Below, piece by piece: positions 2,937-37,784 of a stretch of DNA of 53,698 nucleotides (the stretch's first letter is position 1; every line of letters starts with the position of its first letter). This stretch comes from a virus. A program made the translations under genes and the position numbers. Where the stretch lies: IMG/VR virus record IMGVR_UViG_3300028802_000020, positions 1 to 53,698 of that record. The stretch is one strand, 5' to 3'. The notes beneath the pieces were generated by a model that was given only the letters and a program-made list of their open reading frames with translations, made no database searches and was not told where the DNA came from.

Positions 2937-5900
2937 GTGTCTCCCGATGCCCCGACTACCGAAATCGGATACACCCTGGCACCCACCTATAGCAGGGTGC
3001 CATTCGACGACGGCGAAACCACTCCCGAACTGGTCTGGCCGCAGAGCATTTATGTCTATGACCAGATGCGCCGCACCGATTCGCAGGTCGGATCGGTACT
3101 GCGGGCGGTCACCGAGACGCTGCTGCGGACCCCGTGGCGGATCGACCCAGCCGGCGCGAAGGCCCGGGTGACGAAATTCGTCGCCGACGACCTCGGTTTG
3201 CCGATCGTCGGGAAGAACCCAACGCCTCCGCCGCGGCTGAAGGACCGGTTCTCGTGGCCCTCGCACCTCCGCGAGGCCCTGCTCATGCTCCCCATGGGGC
3301 ACGCCTACTTCGAACAGGTCTACCGCATCACCGACGACGGCAAAGCAGCGCACCTGCGGAAACTCGCCTACCGGCCGGCGAAGACGCTCGAGTACATCAA
3401 CGTCGCATCCGACGGCGGACTGATCTCGATCCAGCAGTACTGGACCCGGCTGGACAGCGAGCCGAAGCCGATCCCCGTCGACCACCTTGTCGCCTACATC
3501 CACGCCAAAGAAGGCGGCAACTGGCTCGGAACCAGCATTTTGCGGAATTGTTACAAGAATTGGCTGTTGAAAGACCGTTTGTTGCGGGTTCAGGCGCAAA
3601 CAATCGAGCGCAACGGCATGGGAATCCCGCTCTACACGGCCGCCGAAACGGAAACCGACCTCGCCAAAGGGCTCGGCATGGCCACCTCGTGGCGCGCCGG
3701 TGAAGCCGCCGGCTCAGCCGTGCCGTTCGGTGCGTCCCTGAAGCTGGTCGGTGTTGAGGGCACCCTGCCCGACGCGATGCCGGTGATCGAATACCACGAC
3801 GCCCAGATCGCCCGTGCCGTCCTCGCGCACTTCTTGAACCTCGGCCAGCAGACCGGCTCATGGGCGCTCGGTACGACGTTCGCCGACTTTTTCACGATGA
3901 GTTTGCAGACGTTGGCCGAGCAGATCCGCGACACGGCCACCCAGCACATCGTCGAGGACCTCGTCGACCACAACTTCGGCCCGGAGGAGCCCGCCCCCCG
4001 GCTCGTCTTCGACGAAATCGGCTCAAGGCAAGCCCCCACGGCACAGGCCATCAAGACCTTGGTCGACGCCGGAGTCCTCCACCCCGATGAGGTACTCGAG
4101 GAATCCTCCCGGCAGCAGTACGGCCTACCACCCGCCGATCCGGCGACAGCAACCCTCCCTCCCGGCACGGCCAGCGCAACCCCGCCGGCGACGACGCAGA
4201 TGGGGGACACGAGTCCCTCGGTGGCGGCGAGCGGGGACCCAAAAGCGGCCGCCGCCGAGGAGGCGGAACTCGACGAAGAGGCTGACGACTGGGAAGACGC
4301 CATCGATGCGCTCATCCTGGCGTTCGAAGAACTGTCGGCCGAGCGGGTCGAGGCAGCGTTCGACCCGGCGAAGCACGCCCGGAACCCGAAGGGCAGCCCG
4401 GGCGGCGGCAAGTTCCGCAGCATGGCCGACCGGCTGAAAGAGGCCATCACCCAGCACGGGAACGGTGACGGGAAAGGCCATCCGCTCGACGGGTTCGACC
4501 GCGAGCAGTTGCGGCGTGTCGCCAAGTCGCGTGGCGTCGAGTTGGGCCGCGGCGAGTCCCGTGACTCCATCGCCGAGAAGCTCGTCAAGCACCTCGGCCC
4601 GGCGCCGGAGAAGACCGCGGCGCCAAAGAAGGCCGTCGACAAGCCTGCGGAGAGGGCCGTCAAGAAGGCCGCACCGAAGGCGGACGCACCGAGCTCACCG
4701 GCGGGCTCGCTCGACAAGTCCGTCAAGAGCGGCGTCAAGTCCAGCAAGGTCCTCACCTCGAGCGGTTCCGGCACGATCACGCTCGTGACGTTCAAGGACG
4801 GCACCAAGGCGATCAAGAAGACGATCCACGCCAAGGGTGAGGACGGGAAGCGGCAGGTCGACGCCGCCGAACTGGCCGCATCCTTGGCCCAGGCGCTCGA
4901 GGTGGCGACACCGGCTGTGCGCCGGATCGACGACCGCGAGTTCTACATGGAGTACATCGACTCGCCGACCGCCTACCACGACGAGCGTATGCACCAGGGG
5001 AACCTCGACAAGCTGCACGGCTCGTCGGCCGGTCAGATGCTCGGCCTGTTCGACCTGCTGATCGACTACGACGACCGCAGCAACCGCGAGAACTGGGCAT
5101 TCGACAAGAACCGCCGGATCGTCGCCCTCGACCACGACACCGCCTGGGAGGTTGGCCGGAACCCGGCGAAGCCACCACAGGAGAACTGGGCACAGTCACC
5201 GTTCGCGGCGCACTGGGTCGCCGGCAAGAAGTGGAAGCCCAACGACCTTGCGCCGGTCGTCGCGGACACCATCCGGCAGCGGCTGGACGGACTCCGCCCG
5301 GAGTTCGAGCGGCACGGCCGCGGGGCATGGCTGGACTTCGCTCTCGCCCGACTGGCCGTGATCGAGGCGCACTCGACGAGCGGGCACACCATGGCCGCCT
5401 CGGCGGCAGACGATGACGGCCTCTTCCCGCTGTCCGACGTCCAGGCCAAGTACAACCCTGGGCAACTGCGGGACCCGGGCGGCGAGGACGGCGGACGGTG
5501 GGTCAAGAACCCGGCGAGCGCCGCCAAGGATGCGCTCAAACTCGCCGGGAAGATTGACCTCGCCGACGACGAGCAGCTGCTCGGCTCCGCAAAGATCGAC
5601 GGCGAAGCTGGCGGCATCCGCATGGCGCTCATCGATCGCGGCGGACGGAAGATGCTGCGCCTCGGACTCGGCCCCGAAGACTACGGCAAGGCCAACCGCG
5701 ACGAGGGCACCCCCGCCTGGGACGGCAACCCCACCCGCACGCCCCTGACCTCCGGAACAAAGCGGCTGCTCGACGAAGAGTTCGGAGACCTGAACGACGA
5801 GTACGACTCCGCCAGCCCGGAACGCCAGCAAGAAATCGACGATCGGCAAGCCAAGATCCGCGAACTACTCGCCGCGGACGAGCACTTCAACGGCATCGCC

Positions 5901-7607
5901 GCACTCGACGAGTACAACATGGACCGGCTCGCGTCGAAGATCCGTCCAGCGCTCACCGAAGCCGTCGAACAGGCGACTGCCGAGAACGTGGCAGACGACG
6001 AAATCGAGGAGCTGAAGGCCGAGGCGGCGGTAACCGGAGTCCAACCCGACCCGGACCGTCTCGCCGCGCTCCGCCGGATCACGGATCGCAGCCACCTCAT
6101 CGTTTTCGATCAGGGCATCATTCCCGGCTCCGGCAACGACTGGGGCGACGTGCACTGGTCCGTCGAACTCGATGATCCCACGGTCGGCCCCGAGGTCCGG
6201 CTCGGCGTACAGCCCAAGGGTGCCGGCGACGACTGGGGCGTCGGGGTCGACTGGCAGGGCACCTTCACCCCTGCCGAGACCCGCAAGTTCCTCCGCCTGC
6301 TCGACCAGTACAGCAAAGGCGGAGTCCAGGCAGCAGCAGGTGTCGACACCCACCCGGGTGGCGAACAACTCAAGCACTACTGGGTGTATGGCGAAGGCGC
6401 AGCAAAATGGGCGACGTGGACCGAGCTTGAGCACCATCTCCTGAAGTACCTGAAGGAGGGCCTGGCGAAGCGGACCGCTGCAGCCTGGTTCCACCTCCGG
6501 TACGGCTATTGGCCCGGTGACCACCGCAACGTCCACGCCTCAGCCGACGCCGAAGCCGACGACTGGGAAGAGGCCATCGCCGCGCTCGTCCAGGCTCTCG
6601 CCGAACTCTCCGGTGAAGTACTGGCCGGGGCCTTCGACGAAGCCAGGCATCCCCGCGGCAAGGGCGGCAAGTTCCGCTCCACCGTCGACAAGCTGAAGGA
6701 CGCGATCCAGACCCACCGTTCCGGCGGCGGGAAGGGCGACCCGTTCGAAGGCTTCGACCGCGAGCAGCTGCGTCGCGCCGCAGTGAAGCAGCCCGGCATC
6801 ACGCTGACCCGCGGCGAGTCGCGGGATTCGATCGCCAAGAAGCTGCTGGACGATCTCGATGGCGGTTCGAAGGCCGAAACGCCGAAGGTTGCGGAGCCGA
6901 AGCCGGTCAAGAAGACGCCGGTGAAACGTGCTCCGCGGAAGAAGGCGGCGCCCAAGCCGGAGGCCGCACCGAAGAAGGCCGTCACGCCGAAGTCGGCGGG
7001 TCGGGTTGCCGGCCGCGACATGATCGCCAACGGCGGTGACGCCAAGCTCGTTCGTGAGGTCGACGCCGACCACGGCTCGTACCAGTCGGCCGACACACAA
7101 CTCGCGTCCATCGCCGCGAAGCAGGGCTTCGACGGCCCGCCCAAGGTCGTGTCCCGCAGCGAGATGGACCGGCTCACCAAGGATCGGGAGCCTCTGTACC
7201 GCGGCGTGCACTCGCACGGCGGTGTGTCTGCCGCAGCCATCCATGAGCAGACCCGCAACGGGCCTGCCTGGTTCGGGAACGGCATCTTCGGCAACGGCTA
7301 CTACTTCGCCGTCGACGAGGAGAAGACCCGCCACTACAGCGACCGGACGCCGGGTTCCATGATGCGGGCAGTCCTGGATCCCGACGCGAACATCATCTCG
7401 TTCGACGACCTCAAGACACTGCTCCGCGACTACGACCGGAAGATGGAGGACGACGACCCGCGCTGGCCCGTCTTCAGCGACCCCGGCCGGCTCGCGGCAG
7501 CGCTCGGCTACGACGCGGTCCGGGTCCCCATGTCCCAGGGTGAGGGTGGCGACCAGGTGCTCGTCCTGAACCGGACGGCGCTGATCATCGAGGAGCCGGC
7601 CGGATGA
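2937..7607 (+). CDS. Portal protein fused to kinase-like and ADP-ribosyltransferase-like modules
   Basis: A single open frame of 1556 residues. Residues 1-440 look like a portal of the Mu gp29/DUF935 type and alone have normal portal length. What follows is modular. Residues 446-555 form an adaptor: an acidic DDWE helix, a basic-Gly motif ending GGKFRS, and a SAP-like helix pair. Residues about 600-815 resemble a PI3/4-kinase-fold domain, with Lys near 624-628, EYID at about 672, and D-x4-N-x2-NW then ALDHD at 707-735. A second, shorter linker (about 838-870) precedes an unrecognised domain. The adaptor is repeated at 1207-1308, followed by a Lys/Pro linker and an ADP-ribosyltransferase-like domain (YRG at 1421, FGNGIFGNGYYFA at 1446-1458). 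Start is GTG after GGGGTG. No internal ribosome-binding site was seen that would separate the domains. The portal call is firm; the enzyme calls are motif-based inference. Confidence 0.85.
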   Translation: MSPDAPTTEIGYTLAPTYSRVPFDDGETTPELVWPQSIYVYDQMRRTDSQVGSVLRAVTETLLRTPWRIDPAGAKARVTKFVADDLGLPIVGKNPTPPPRLKDRFSWPSHLREALLMLPMGHAYFEQVYRITDDGKAAHLRKLAYRPAKTLEYINVASDGGLISIQQYWTRLDSEPKPIPVDHLVAYIHAKEGGNWLGTSILRNCYKNWLLKDRLLRVQAQTIERNGMGIPLYTAAETETDLAKGLGMATSWRAGEAAGSAVPFGASLKLVGVEGTLPDAMPVIEYHDAQIARAVLAHFLNLGQQTGSWALGTTFADFFTMSLQTLAEQIRDTATQHIVEDLVDHNFGPEEPAPRLVFDEIGSRQAPTAQAIKTLVDAGVLHPDEVLEESSRQQYGLPPADPATATLPPGTASATPPATTQMGDTSPSVAASGDPKAAAAEEAELDEEADDWEDAIDALILAFEELSAERVEAAFDPAKHARNPKGSPGGGKFRSMADRLKEAITQHGNGDGKGHPLDGFDREQLRRVAKSRGVELGRGESRDSIAEKLVKHLGPAPEKTAAPKKAVDKPAERAVKKAAPKADAPSSPAGSLDKSVKSGVKSSKVLTSSGSGTITLVTFKDGTKAIKKTIHAKGEDGKRQVDAAELAASLAQALEVATPAVRRIDDREFYMEYIDSPTAYHDERMHQGNLDKLHGSSAGQMLGLFDLLIDYDDRSNRENWAFDKNRRIVALDHDTAWEVGRNPAKPPQENWAQSPFAAHWVAGKKWKPNDLAPVVADTIRQRLDGLRPEFERHGRGAWLDFALARLAVIEAHSTSGHTMAASAADDDGLFPLSDVQAKYNPGQLRDPGGEDGGRWVKNPASAAKDALKLAGKIDLADDEQLLGSAKIDGEAGGIRMALIDRGGRKMLRLGLGPEDYGKANRDEGTPAWDGNPTRTPLTSGTKRLLDEEFGDLNDEYDSASPERQQEIDDRQAKIRELLAADEHFNGIAALDEYNMDRLASKIRPALTEAVEQATAENVADDEIEELKAEAAVTGVQPDPDRLAALRRITDRSHLIVFDQGIIPGSGNDWGDVHWSVELDDPTVGPEVRLGVQPKGAGDDWGVGVDWQGTFTPAETRKFLRLLDQYSKGGVQAAAGVDTHPGGEQLKHYWVYGEGAAKWATWTELEHHLLKYLKEGLAKRTAAAWFHLRYGYWPGDHRNVHASADAEADDWEEAIAALVQALAELSGEVLAGAFDEARHPRGKGGKFRSTVDKLKDAIQTHRSGGGKGDPFEGFDREQLRRAAVKQPGITLTRGESRDSIAKKLLDDLDGGSKAETPKVAEPKPVKKTPVKRAPRKKAAPKPEAAPKKAVTPKSAGRVAGRDMIANGGDAKLVREVDADHGSYQSADTQLASIAAKQGFDGPPKVVSRSEMDRLTKDREPLYRGVHSHGGVSAAAIHEQTRNGPAWFGNGIFGNGYYFAVDEEKTRHYSDRTPGSMMRAVLDPDANIISFDDLKTLLRDYDRKMEDDDPRWPVFSDPGRLAAALGYDAVRVPMSQGEGGDQVLVLNRTALIIEEPAG

Positions 7608-7768
7608 CGCCCGACCTCTCCCGGCGGCTCGGCCGGATCCTCGGCAACACCGTCCTGCCCGCCGCAGACCGATGGCGCATCGTCGACGCCGCCGTGAAGG
7701 CCGACACCTTCGCGGACCTGCCGGACGACATCCGGCGGCTCGTGGAGTCGCTCGAACCGCAGACCTGA
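7604..7768 (+). CDS. Small hypothetical protein downstream of the portal fusion
   Basis: A 54-residue protein whose ATG overlaps the portal stop codon in ATGA, indicating translational coupling. It is mixed charged/hydrophobic with likely helices (RWRIVDAAVKADTF, DDIRRLVESLE) and no Cys or membrane segment. The position directly after the ADP-ribosyltransferase-like domain would suit a small partner or inhibitor of that domain, but nothing in the sequence proves it. Overprinting by chance is possible; the overlap and codon use favour a real gene. Confidence 0.6.
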   Translation: MTPDLSRRLGRILGNTVLPAADRWRIVDAAVKADTFADLPDDIRRLVESLEPQT

Positions 7769-7812
7769 TCCGGCTGCACCGACCCCACCCACCGAAGGAG
7801 GTGCGTGGGGAA

Positions 7813-9702
7813 ATGACGCACGCCCTGAGCGCCGCATATGACCCATCGGAGCACCCGCATGCCCCCGCCGGCTCGTCGACGGGCGGCCAGTTCGCTCAGA
7901 TCGGGAACACCGCGAAGAAGGCGGCGACCAAGTCGGCGAAGTCCGGCATGTCAAGGTCGGGCCGGTCCCATACGCCGTCCGGCCATCCGGCGCGGAAACC
8001 CGACGACGGCACCATGTCCTACGACCCGAAATCCAACCGCGGCACCGGCTACGACAACCCGGACGGCGACCCGAGGGTCAAGAAGCTGCAGGAGGCGCTG
8101 ACCCGGCTCGGGCTCACCGACTCCGCCGGGAAGCCGTTGAAACTTGACGGGAAACTCGGTCCGAAGACGACCGCGGCCGTGCGGAAGGCGCAGCACCGGA
8201 TGGGCGTCCCGGTCGACGGGAAAGTCACACCGGCACTGCTGCAGAAGCTCGCCGAGGCGAAGACGATCACCCGGGCGGCGGCCCCGATGATGCCGTACGG
8301 CGGCGATGTCTCCTACGCCGACCCGGGCTACCAGCCGGACAAGAAGAAGCGATATCCGCTGGACTCGGAGGAGCACTGCCGAGCGGCGTGGTCCTACATC
8401 AACATGCCGAAGAACGCGGCAATGTACACCGCCGAGCAGCTCGCCACCATCAAGGCGAAGATGCAGGCTGCGGGGAAGAAGTACGGCATCGACTTCGCCG
8501 GCCAGGTGAAGGCCGCCGCTGTCGACGGCGCCCTGCGTGGTGTGGAGCTCGCCCGTCCGGGTGCCTGGAAGCTCTCCAGCGGCGACGTCGAGTTCACCGA
8601 GCAGATGCTCCGCGACGCCGCAGACTTCTTCGCCGCGTCCGGCGGTCAGGCCGTCCCGGTGAAACTGGGTCATACCGACAACCGGTTCAACGGCGACGGA
8701 GAACCGGCGTTCGGGTCCGTCACCAACGTGCGTTTCACCACCGATGACCGTGGTCCGGTGCTGCTCGGCGACATCGTCGACATGCCGCAGTGGCTCGGCG
8801 CTGCAGCTCCGAAGCGGTGGCCGAACAGGTCCATCGAGGGCTGGCAGAACTTCTCCTACGACGGCCGCGAGTACTCGCTGATCCTGTCTGGGCTCGCGTT
8901 CCTCGGGGTGACCCCGCCGGGCGTCAAGAACATCAAGTCCCTCGCCGATCTCCAGGTCGCGCTCGCTGCCTCGTCCGCGACACGACTCGTTGCCTCGGCT
9001 CCACCGGACGATCCTGCGGAACCACCCGACGACGAAGTCGAAGACCTCGGCGAGGAAGACGACGACGAGCCCGACGACGGGGAACCGGACGCCACCGAAC
9101 TGCAGGAACCCATCCCGACCACCCGAACGCCCGCCCATCCGGCGGGCGTTTCGCATGTCGCCGCTCAGGCGGCAGCCCGCATCCACAACGCACCAGTGAG
9201 AGGAGCCGGGATGAACCTGGCCAAGTACAGGGAGGCACTGGCCGGGCTCCCGGACGACGCCTCCGAAGAGGAAATCGCGGCGGCACTCGCCGCGGCCGGC
9301 CTCGCATCGGAACCGGTGGGTGAGAGCACCCAGGAGCTCGACCAGCGGGTCGCCGCCGCAGCGGCGAAGGGTGGCCTGGTCACCATCGACCCGGCGCAGC
9401 TGCAGGAGTTCCGGGACGCCATGGTCCGTGCCTCGGCGCTGACCAAGCGCCTCGAAACCCAGGACCGGGACAGCACCATCACCGACGCCATCAAGATGGG
9501 CAAGTTCCCGCCGGCCCGGCGTCAGCACTACGAGCGGTACTGGGACGCGGACCCCGTCGGCGCGAAGGAAGTCATCGCGTCGCTCGCCGCCAACCTGGTG
9601 CCGGTGACCGCATCCGGCTACGACACCGACGCCGACCGGCAGGACGACGAACTCGACCGTGAGATCGCCCGCCTGTCCCCGCCGAAGGCGAAGGTGGCCT
9701 AG
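7813..9702 (+). CDS. Mu gpI-like capsid maturation protease with peptidoglycan-binding domain
   Basis: A 629-residue multidomain protein. Residues 8-30 carry the same kind of Gly-rich adaptor motif as in the portal fusion (AAYDPSEH...TGGQF). Residues about 83-150 match a PG_binding_1 fold (RVKKLQEALTRLGL, LDGKLGPKTTAAVRKAQ). Residues about 236-385 resemble the Mu-like prohead protease (RPGAWKLSSGDVEFT, VPVKLGHT, RSIEGWQNFSYDG). An acidic stretch (397-433) is followed by a scaffold-like C-terminus. ATG at 7813 follows AAGGAG at 7795-7800. The protease would trim scaffold and head proteins; the wall-binding domain is unexpected in a head protease. Confidence 0.82.
   Translation: MTHALSAAYDPSEHPHAPAGSSTGGQFAQIGNTAKKAATKSAKSGMSRSGRSHTPSGHPARKPDDGTMSYDPKSNRGTGYDNPDGDPRVKKLQEALTRLGLTDSAGKPLKLDGKLGPKTTAAVRKAQHRMGVPVDGKVTPALLQKLAEAKTITRAAAPMMPYGGDVSYADPGYQPDKKKRYPLDSEEHCRAAWSYINMPKNAAMYTAEQLATIKAKMQAAGKKYGIDFAGQVKAAAVDGALRGVELARPGAWKLSSGDVEFTEQMLRDAADFFAASGGQAVPVKLGHTDNRFNGDGEPAFGSVTNVRFTTDDRGPVLLGDIVDMPQWLGAAAPKRWPNRSIEGWQNFSYDGREYSLILSGLAFLGVTPPGVKNIKSLADLQVALAASSATRLVASAPPDDPAEPPDDEVEDLGEEDDDEPDDGEPDATELQEPIPTTRTPAHPAGVSHVAAQAAARIHNAPVRGAGMNLAKYREALAGLPDDASEEEIAAALAAAGLASEPVGESTQELDQRVAAAAAKGGLVTIDPAQLQEFRDAMVRASALTKRLETQDRDSTITDAIKMGKFPPARRQHYERYWDADPVGAKEVIASLAANLVPVTASGYDTDADRQDDELDREIARLSPPKAKVA
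9211..9702 (+). CDS. Nested scaffold protein from an internal start
   Basis: An in-frame ATG at 9211 inside the protease gene is preceded by GAGAGGAG six bases upstream, a strong ribosome-binding site. The product would be 163 residues, helical and Ala/Glu-rich (KYREALAGLPDDASEEE) and equal to the protease C-terminus. In phage Mu and relatives a scaffold is made by an internal start in the protease gene, so this is probably the free scaffold. The existence of the separate product is inference from the ribosome-binding site and family precedent. Confidence 0.65.
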   Translation: MNLAKYREALAGLPDDASEEEIAAALAAAGLASEPVGESTQELDQRVAAAAAKGGLVTIDPAQLQEFRDAMVRASALTKRLETQDRDSTITDAIKMGKFPPARRQHYERYWDADPVGAKEVIASLAANLVPVTASGYDTDADRQDDELDREIARLSPPKAKVA

Positions 9703-36607: not shown

Positions 36608-36928
36608 ATGCCCAAAAGACCCCGCGTCTTGATCTACGTCCGCGGTTTATCCGAGGAACGCGACGAGCAGGCCGACCAGTGTGCCCGGTACATCGAGGAG
36701 CGCAGTTATCGACTCGTCGGTGTGGCGTCCGACGAGCCGCCGTTTCGGGACGGCTGGGTCGACGCCGAGCAGATGCTGAACGCCGGCGAAGTCGACCGGA
36801 TCATCCTGGTCAGCGCCGCGAACATCCCCGAGGATCTGGAGTCGGTGACCGGCGGTCTGCCGGCCGGGCAGTTCACCCGGCCGGCAGAGCAGCGGGTCAA
36901 GCCTGTGCGGCGGGGCGGGGAAGCATAG
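36608..36928 (+). CDS. Resolvase-like N-terminal domain, probably inactive
   Basis: 106 residues. Matches the start of serine recombinases: RPRVLIYVRGLSEERDEQAD, QCARYIEERSYRLVGVASDE, LNAGEVDRIILVSAANIPED. The catalytic serine in YVRxS appears replaced: the sequence is YVRGLS, with Leu at that position. The DNA-binding domain is missing. The 3' end overlaps the convergent integrase gene by 32 bp. Such stand-alone domains occur in actinobacterial integrative elements; the function is unknown. Confidence 0.75.
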   Translation: MPKRPRVLIYVRGLSEERDEQADQCARYIEERSYRLVGVASDEPPFRDGWVDAEQMLNAGEVDRIILVSAANIPEDLESVTGGLPAGQFTRPAEQRVKPVRRGGEA

Positions 36929-37784
36929 CCCGCGCGGCCCGCTGCTGCTCGGCCGTCGCTTTGGTGTAGATCTGCGTCGACTGCAGCGACTCGTGCCCGA
37001 GAACCTCCTGCGTCACGCGCACGTCCTTGTAGGCCGCCTGGGTGCGCACACCGAGCCAGTGCCGGAACCGGTGCATCGACACGCCCGGCATGCCCAGCCG
37101 GCGCCGGAAGTAGACGGCCGAGGTCGAGGAGACGTAGAACGCCGTCGCCCGCGTCCCGGTACGTGGGTCGACGGCGACCGGCCCGGGCGGCAGGTCCTGG
37201 ACCGCTGCCCAGACAAGCGGGTCGGTGTCGTGGATCCGCGGTTTGCCGCCCTTGCCCTTGACGACGCGGAGCAGCTGCTCGGTGATGTGCTCCCGGTCCA
37301 GTCGGGAGATTTCGATGCAGCGCAGGCCCTGGAAGGCGGCGATCGTGGCCCACAGCCGGTAGGGCTGCCGGGCCTCGTCGAGGATCCGCCAGAGTTGCTC
37401 GTCCTCGACGTCCCGGGCGATGCCGCGCACGGTGCGGACCGGTGTCATGTACAGGGTGGGGTTGTCGTCGAGCCACCGGTCACGAGGGTCGGCCGCCCAC
37501 GTGTAGAAGCTCTTCAGCGCCGTCCAGTAGGTGGCCTTGGTGTTCTGCGTCCACCGCTCCTCGTCCGGGTGGGCGGCCTCCCAGCGCTCGTCGTGGAGCC
37601 ATTCCTCGAGCTCGTCCTGGCAGGTGTGGTCCACGCCGTACGGCAGTTGCCGCTGGAGCCGGCAGAGGATTTCGCGGCGGCCGTCGATGGTGGCGTCGGT
37701 GAAGGAGTTGCGTGCGAGGTGCTTGAGGTAGCTCTCGATCATCTCCATCCCGTCACCGTCCACCGCCGATGTCTGGAAGGCCAT
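36897..37784 (-). CDS. int: Tyrosine integrase
   Basis: 295 residues. N-terminal core-binding domain (MIESYLKHLARNSFTDATID, TQNTKATYWTALKSFYTWA) and a catalytic domain with R155 (QGLRCIEIS), a Lys in VVKGKGGKP, H238 and R241 (HRFRHW), H264 (LGHES) and nucleophile Y273 (QIYTKAT). It should integrate the phage by site-specific recombination. Start M1 or M13. Directly downstream of the repressor on the same strand, six bases apart, so likely co-transcribed. Confidence 0.92.
   Translation of the reverse strand: MAFQTSAVDGDGMEMIESYLKHLARNSFTDATIDGRREILCRLQRQLPYGVDHTCQDELEEWLHDERWEAAHPDEERWTQNTKATYWTALKSFYTWAADPRDRWLDDNPTLYMTPVRTVRGIARDVEDEQLWRILDEARQPYRLWATIAAFQGLRCIEISRLDREHITEQLLRVVKGKGGKPRIHDTDPLVWAAVQDLPPGPVAVDPRTGTRATAFYVSSTSAVYFRRRLGMPGVSMHRFRHWLGVRTQAAYKDVRVTQEVLGHESLQSTQIYTKATAEQQRAARAMLPRPAAQA

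Follow-up and report, generated by a model that had tools for sequence, protein, structure and literature searches.

A Mu-type portal protein with a long modular tail of predicted enzyme folds in an uncultured actinobacterial phage

The window analysed here is the whole of IMG/VR virus record IMGVR_UViG_3300028802_000020 (positions 1–53,698), and the element in question is its portal gene at 2937–7607 (+ strand), a single open reading frame (ORF) of 1556 codons that starts with GTG and has no internal stop. The first 400 residues form a Mu/P23-45-type portal (Pfam Portal_Mu, 6.8e-59; phrog_113, 2.1e-96), the Portal_Mu (PF06074) match spanning residues 40–397, i.e. the whole length of the domain. 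The nearest cultured portals are those of Gordonia and Arthrobacter phages (identity up to ~59%), and the gene order terminase–portal–protease–major capsid protein is the same as in SoilAssassin. To this portal of normal size a C-terminal tail adds ~1150 residues, including a predicted kinase fold and a predicted ADP-ribosyltransferase (ART) fold. An earlier note, made from the sequence alone, had proposed that a portal and a chain of domains are fused in one frame and that no internal ribosome-binding site separates them. Both proposals hold: a search inside the ORF for in-frame starts that have a Shine-Dalgarno-like sequence was negative, which speaks against separate translation of the modules from internal starts, and the G+C content at third codon positions (GC3) is uniform along its length (0.79–0.92). 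The start of the extension, which the note placed at 4270, has to be moved upstream, to about 4137–4220.

The tail consists of three cassettes: a SAP-like repeat with the kinase fold, a domain of unknown function with a HYW domain, and a SAP-like repeat with the ART fold. Cassettes start with a box of the pattern [FYW][ND]Pxx(HP)RxxxGx[FW] ('FNPxxHPRxxxGKF'-like); in the window the portal ORF contains three of them (4359, 5451 and 6633), and a further one is N-terminal in the downstream protease (7837). The note had described two adaptors and an unknown domain. The adaptor is indeed repeated (4269–4600 and 6543–6860), but the tail is better described by three boxes and three cassettes, and the region of the unknown domain, which is present, ends in a separate domain of ~65 amino acids (aa), phrog_6439. 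The features are as follows.

2937–4136, +: portal core, residues 1–400 (Portal_Mu and phrog_113 matches; cultured Gordonia phage portals)
4221–4232, +: VAAS, junction of portal and tail, where sister short portals end too
4347–4358, +: VEAA, candidate cleavage site preceding cassette 1
4359–4415, +: box 1, FDPAKHARNPKGSPGGGKF (box pattern)
4482–4600, +: SAP-like helical repeat 1, then a Lys/Ala/Pro linker (repeat copy; hhalign)
4767–5370, +: predicted kinase-fold domain, HipA/CtkA/PI3K-like (PF00454 match in a relative, structure, catalytic residues, pMLP1 homologue)
5439–5450, +: VQAK, candidate cleavage site preceding cassette 2
5451–5501, +: box 2, YNPGQLRDPGGEDGGRW (box pattern)
5502–6323, +: domain of unknown function (similar sequence, by eye, in the L041 portal tail)
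6324–6335, +: VQAA, candidate cleavage site preceding the HYW domain
6339–6530, +: HYW domain (phrog_6439, 1.2e-10; Poushou gp53, Phendrix gp70)
6531–6542, +: VHAS, candidate cleavage site 3' of the HYW domain
6633–6674, +: box 3, FDEARHPRGKGGKF (box pattern)
6741–6860, +: SAP-like helical repeat 2, then a Lys/Pro linker (repeat copy; hhalign)
6999–7604, +: predicted ART-fold domain (R1422, Y1456; Q1540 at the usual Glu position; model, structure searches, residues)
7604–7768, +: ORF of 54 aa, GGATGACG, overlapping the portal stop codon (ATGA); candidate ART antitoxin or immunity protein (profile, linkage)
7813–9702, +: head maturation protease (phrog_3894, 2.3e-54; Mu-like_Pro, 2.1e-10)
7837–7893, +: N-terminal box of the protease (box pattern)
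8071–8250, +: PG_binding_1 domain of the protease (5e-14)
8506–8517, +: VKAA before the protease core (V-x-A motif)
36897–37784, −: tyrosine integrase (PF00589, 5.3e-8, over the cut-off)

Both enzyme folds suspected in the note are supported by structure prediction. For the ART domain, an AlphaFold model built from 23 relatives reached a predicted local distance difference test (pLDDT) score of 95, and all 50 Foldseek matches listed were ART domains (PARP, ExoA, cholix and PE-like); VIA-align ranked first a chain from the cyanophage A4 pre-ejectosome. Arg1422 and Tyr1456 are both conserved residues, and the Arg and Gly/Tyr motifs are kept in nearly all copies of the family. The kinase-domain model, of moderate quality (pLDDT 75), retrieved kinases throughout (CtkA, Fam20C, HipT, HipA, Rio and PI3K), with VIA-align Z-scores of 12.4 for CtkA (208/242 residues), 11.5 for Fam20C and 9.6 for HipA. 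The kinase residues are in place, namely Lys628 in beta-3, catalytic Asp713 and Asn719, and metal-binding Asp732. A related locus (L024; L numbers denote the loci compared) matches PF00454 (2.9e-6). Micromonospora phage pMLP1 has the kinase domain in fusion with a minor capsid protein (PF06152, 1.7e-75; PF00454, 7.7e-7); the same kinase-fusion proteins are encoded by L092. Searches of the viral contigs with the single kinase or ART sequence gave no match and alignment-based searches did, while a PDB sequence search gave no useful match.

The same ART family is found on unrelated portals of PF04860 (L095, L097 and L100), on a portal that also has a MuF domain (L111) and in MuF-type proteins (L103 and L112); L096, L098 and L102 encode it in free-standing ORFs that contain a box. 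Its 11-row alignment, like that of the small ORF described below, is too diverse for pattern searches. Three further occurrences were recorded. Six domains of the family lie close together in an ART island on a viral contig (L098:4054–10098). A giant bacterial frame (L166, reported as 20,955 aa open) has a Nudix domain followed by the same ART, in the order seen in the L023 portal tail. In the minor head protein of cyanophage P-SS2 (L160:1–3780), a member of this ART family occurs together with a zeta toxin and a weak match to Rho_N/SAP.

We compared the portals of 80 viral contigs (59–94% identity to that of the window), with the reservation that some tails run off the contig end and their lengths are therefore minima. 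In 28 distinct contigs the C-terminal tail exceeds ~80 residues (maximum 1706), and the rest stop within ~80. These in-frame tails differ from one another (ART, zeta toxin, Nudix, kinase) and are built from common modules; ADPrib_exo_Tox, PI3/4-kinase-like and SAP domains are among the contents. In a portal-core tree, long tails fall mainly into two neighbouring groups with short ones interspersed, and eight changes are needed. In the sister phage L012 (82% DNA identity), homology to the window breaks off at 4217 and starts again at 7788, 33 bases separating the two parts, i.e. portal and protease genes are joined without the whole insert and the site is empty. The L011 portal, 94% identical to that of the window at the protein level, is common up to 4245, beyond which only scattered, rearranged modules are in common (5394–5447, 6330–6539 and 6547–7646). 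In the cultured phages inspected, the portal has only ~430–480 aa and is followed by a head or capsid maturation protease gene, and no such tails were found among cultured and prophage relatives. We propose that the portal–protease interval is a hot spot of cassette gain, loss and exchange.

The tails appear to follow a grammar. Portal ORFs hold 25 boxes against 0.15 expected from shuffles; other sequence, nine times more extensive, holds 4 against 0.8 expected, 3 of the 4 in an ORF adjoining the portal. The relation of the adaptor repeat to SAP is weak (hhalign probability 86% to a mixed SAP-like set, 1% to a strict set), and Pfam SAP (PF02037) had no match in the window portal ORF. Immediately upstream of module starts, V-x-A-[AKRS] is found in 32 of 38 cases, against a background of 2%. 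In 13 of 20 loci, protease starts being judged by eye, a similar motif, V/I/L-x-A-[AKRSG], stands directly N-terminal of the conserved core of the protease, GVELARPG, and these 13 include all loci with a clear N-terminal protease module. In the latter it reads VKAA (the window, L013 and L015), VKAS (L043, L029 and L035) or VSAA (L017); it is absent from L026, L034, L036, L037, L039 and L040, where a start codon is likely immediately in front of the core, and from L046. Since V-x-A precedes both the module starts and the protease's own core, we regard V-x-A-[AKRS] as a candidate head-protease cleavage site, and its positions lend indirect support to effector release by this protease. SVAA at the portal junction was also considered as a cleavage site proper to long portals and was only partly convincing, given that sister short portals terminate at that position (..GDLSTAASE, ..PGSVASA).

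N-terminal modules are frequent in the head proteases of these phages too. In the window, DUF6582 and PG_binding_1 precede the protease core, a peptidoglycan-binding domain being unusual in a head protease. Elsewhere, the HYW domain forms a small protein of its own (Poushou gp53) and is part of Phendrix gp70 and of head-protease families. Between terminase and portal, a 172-aa ORF (2318–2836, −) resembles, by eye, an HNH homing endonuclease.

The 54-aa ORF that overlaps the portal stop codon is linked exclusively to the ART. A profile made from 13 seed sequences at the same position after the ART (jackknife E-values 1e-3 to 1e-22) was run against 30,884 ORFs of all loci, and the confident matches came from 15 distinct loci, all directly after this ART. 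Two of them, L045 and L095, did not contribute to the seed. Both have lost the ART stop and their portal ORF continues, but the small ORF is intact in another frame, overlapping the still-open portal-tail ORF over its whole length (L045:5979–6140; L095:6800–6964), with AGGAGG upstream of the L045 copy. No small ORF was found at the empty site of L012 or after tails ending in the HYW domain. The family had no significant match among Pfam, PHROG and NCBIfam models (a weak NCBIfam AcrIF11 match, E 0.25, was not used), tblastn of the phage collection gave no match to a homologue, and matches in 395 genomes were weak, inside long frames and taken as chance. By analogy, the likeliest role is that of an ART inhibitor (antitoxin or immunity protein), because there is a precedent in Bxa, an antibacterial prophage MuF-ART with two neutralising immunity proteins adjacent to it (PMC11699363); the product may instead be a chaperone or accessory subunit.

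The reading that we favour, and consider reasonably probable, is that the ORF encodes a portal–effector polyprotein that is cleaved by the head protease, packaged and injected, with the small ORF keeping the ART inactive. Its more specific form, in which the portal is a processed polyprotein cut at V-x-A, the cassettes are exchangeable and a small antitoxin family protects the producing cell, we put at somewhat under an even chance. The first ~400 residues would form the 12-fold portal, and the C-terminal tail, bearing three cassettes, would project into the procapsid; in known portals the C-terminus faces the head interior. Twelve tails of ~125 kDa amount to ~1.5 MDa in the procapsid, a mass similar to that of the N4 virion RNA polymerase. 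The downstream Mu-I-like head protease would cut V-x-A↓[A/K/S] sites at module borders, and portal and cargo pieces would remain in the head, the cargo being held on DNA via the SAP-like and Lys/Pro-rich parts. At infection the cargo would exit with the genome, and the ART and kinase would modify host targets, aiding establishment; host proteins or defence components are natural candidates. In the producing cell, the co-translated 54-aa protein would hold the ART inactive until packaging.

Several observations weigh against this reading. The structure matches of the ART are modest (best Foldseek 1.1e-3; best VIA-align Z 7.0), and the window copy has Gln1540 where many relatives, though only part of them, have Glu, so that catalysis may be weak or altered. 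The kinase model derives from only 3 sequences and was the one good model of five. The sequences in which V-x-A was counted are related by descent, so the p-value of the motif overstates their independence, and V-x-A-A could be a preferred linker sequence. No small ORF is recognisable in about half of the ART loci, the bacterial ART copies among them.

An alternative that we consider unlikely is that the cassettes are interbacterial weapons of a lysogen population, of the polymorphic toxin type modelled by Jamet et al. 2017 (PMC5576092), the particles killing or weakening cells that are not lysogens, with lysogens immune via the small ORF. The toxin-like contents (zeta toxin, ART, metallopeptidase-like), the coupled small ORF and the giant bacterial frame with Nudix and the same ART would all suit it. 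The small ORF lies in a late operon, however, and would possibly be silent in lysogens, and a long tail is present in 0 of 39 portals from sequenced host genomes (longest 130 aa; portals at most ~69% identical to that of the window).

It is rather improbable that the tail remains uncut as a structural or DNA-organising crown in the head, with packaged DNA bound by its SAP-like and Lys/Pro-rich parts and its enzyme domains degenerate or active only within the virion. In its favour are the SAP-like repeats and histone-like linkers (all weak matches) and the lack of the catalytic Glu in the window ART. Against it, near-identical portals manage without any tail, effector types vary completely among relatives, almost every copy of the ART keeps the Arg and Gly/Tyr motifs, and only the ART is followed by a coupled small ORF. 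We likewise see little prospect that the effectors act in the producing cell, lysogenic or lytically infected, rather than after injection (for example in late host shut-off, competitor exclusion or anti-defence) and that the portal merely gives late expression. The position in a late operon would agree with this, as would a temperate life style, which is probable in view of the tyrosine integrase gene; but it is difficult to see why an enzyme needed free in the cell should be joined to a capsid component, members of this ART family are attached to several kinds of head protein, and a neutralising small ORF alongside would better fit protection of the producing cell. Finally, a merger of separate genes by assembly error or frameshift, a concern raised in the earlier note and conceivable for a single contig from an uncultured-virus collection, is almost certainly wrong, because in-frame fusions of the same kind occur in 28 other, independent contigs, GC3 is stable with no change of frame, and the empty site of the sister phage has clean borders.

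Comparable systems are already described, and the suggestion in the note that the arrangement was hitherto unknown was too strong: Iyer et al. report polyvalent effectors in which PBECR, 2H, Nudix and ART domains are fused to portals or MuF (2017, PMC5512222; 2022, PMC9503650), and MuF–VIP2 and portal–MuF fusions are known from Microbacterium phages (PMC7302621). Like the polyvalent proteins as presented there, strings of effectors (ART, Nudix, zeta kinase) are encoded here with the head genes of portal–terminase phages, and one polypeptide among the head genes contains several distinct effector domains, of kinase fold and ART fold. Unlike them, so far as those texts go, the present tails have a grammar of boxes and SAP-like repeats, V-x-A junctions, variation on near-identical portals and, here, an overlapping ART-specific small ORF.

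The MuF polymorphic toxins of Jamet et al. (PMC5576092) and Bxa/Apk2 (PMC11699363) likewise have a constant virion-associated N-terminus and a variable C-terminal toxin, ART among the toxins, and near-identical portals with different tails repeat this layout; those systems come from temperate phages and have adjacent small immunity genes, for which the small ORF is the candidate counterpart here. Their carrier is different, MuF being present in 1–2 copies in SPP1 and the portal in 12; PF04233 was not found in the record and no MuF model matched in the portal ORF. Among cultured phages, Gordonia phage Phendrix encodes gp66, which has a box start (WNEALHPRGADGRW), a pattern that resembles, by eye, a HipA-like kinase, and, towards the C-terminus, the same ART. 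Its gene lies directly after that of the portal, and the small gp67 (a weak match, 4.2 bits, to the small-ORF model) comes next, gp70 having the HYW domain; unlike the window ORF, the Phendrix and GodonK versions stand alone and are not fused to the portal. T4 Alt, an ART, and the N4 virion RNA polymerase are large enzymes that are packaged in the head and injected; unlike the effectors of the window, they are not portal-fused.

If the favoured reading is true, the portal would be an enzyme delivery platform with a definable cassette grammar, and head maturation would be tied to effector release via the predicted cleavage motif. The small-ORF family is a new candidate ART inhibitor, and the cultured Gordonia phages with the same modules (Phendrix and GodonK) can serve as a test system for packaging, cutting and injection. 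Fusions of effectors to portals or MuF being already known from the literature, the present case is probably a variant of virion-delivered polyvalent or polymorphic toxins; as far as that literature shows, what it adds is the cassette grammar, a hypervariable portal tail with an empty site, V-x-A junctions common to the tails and the protease, and an ART-linked small ORF.
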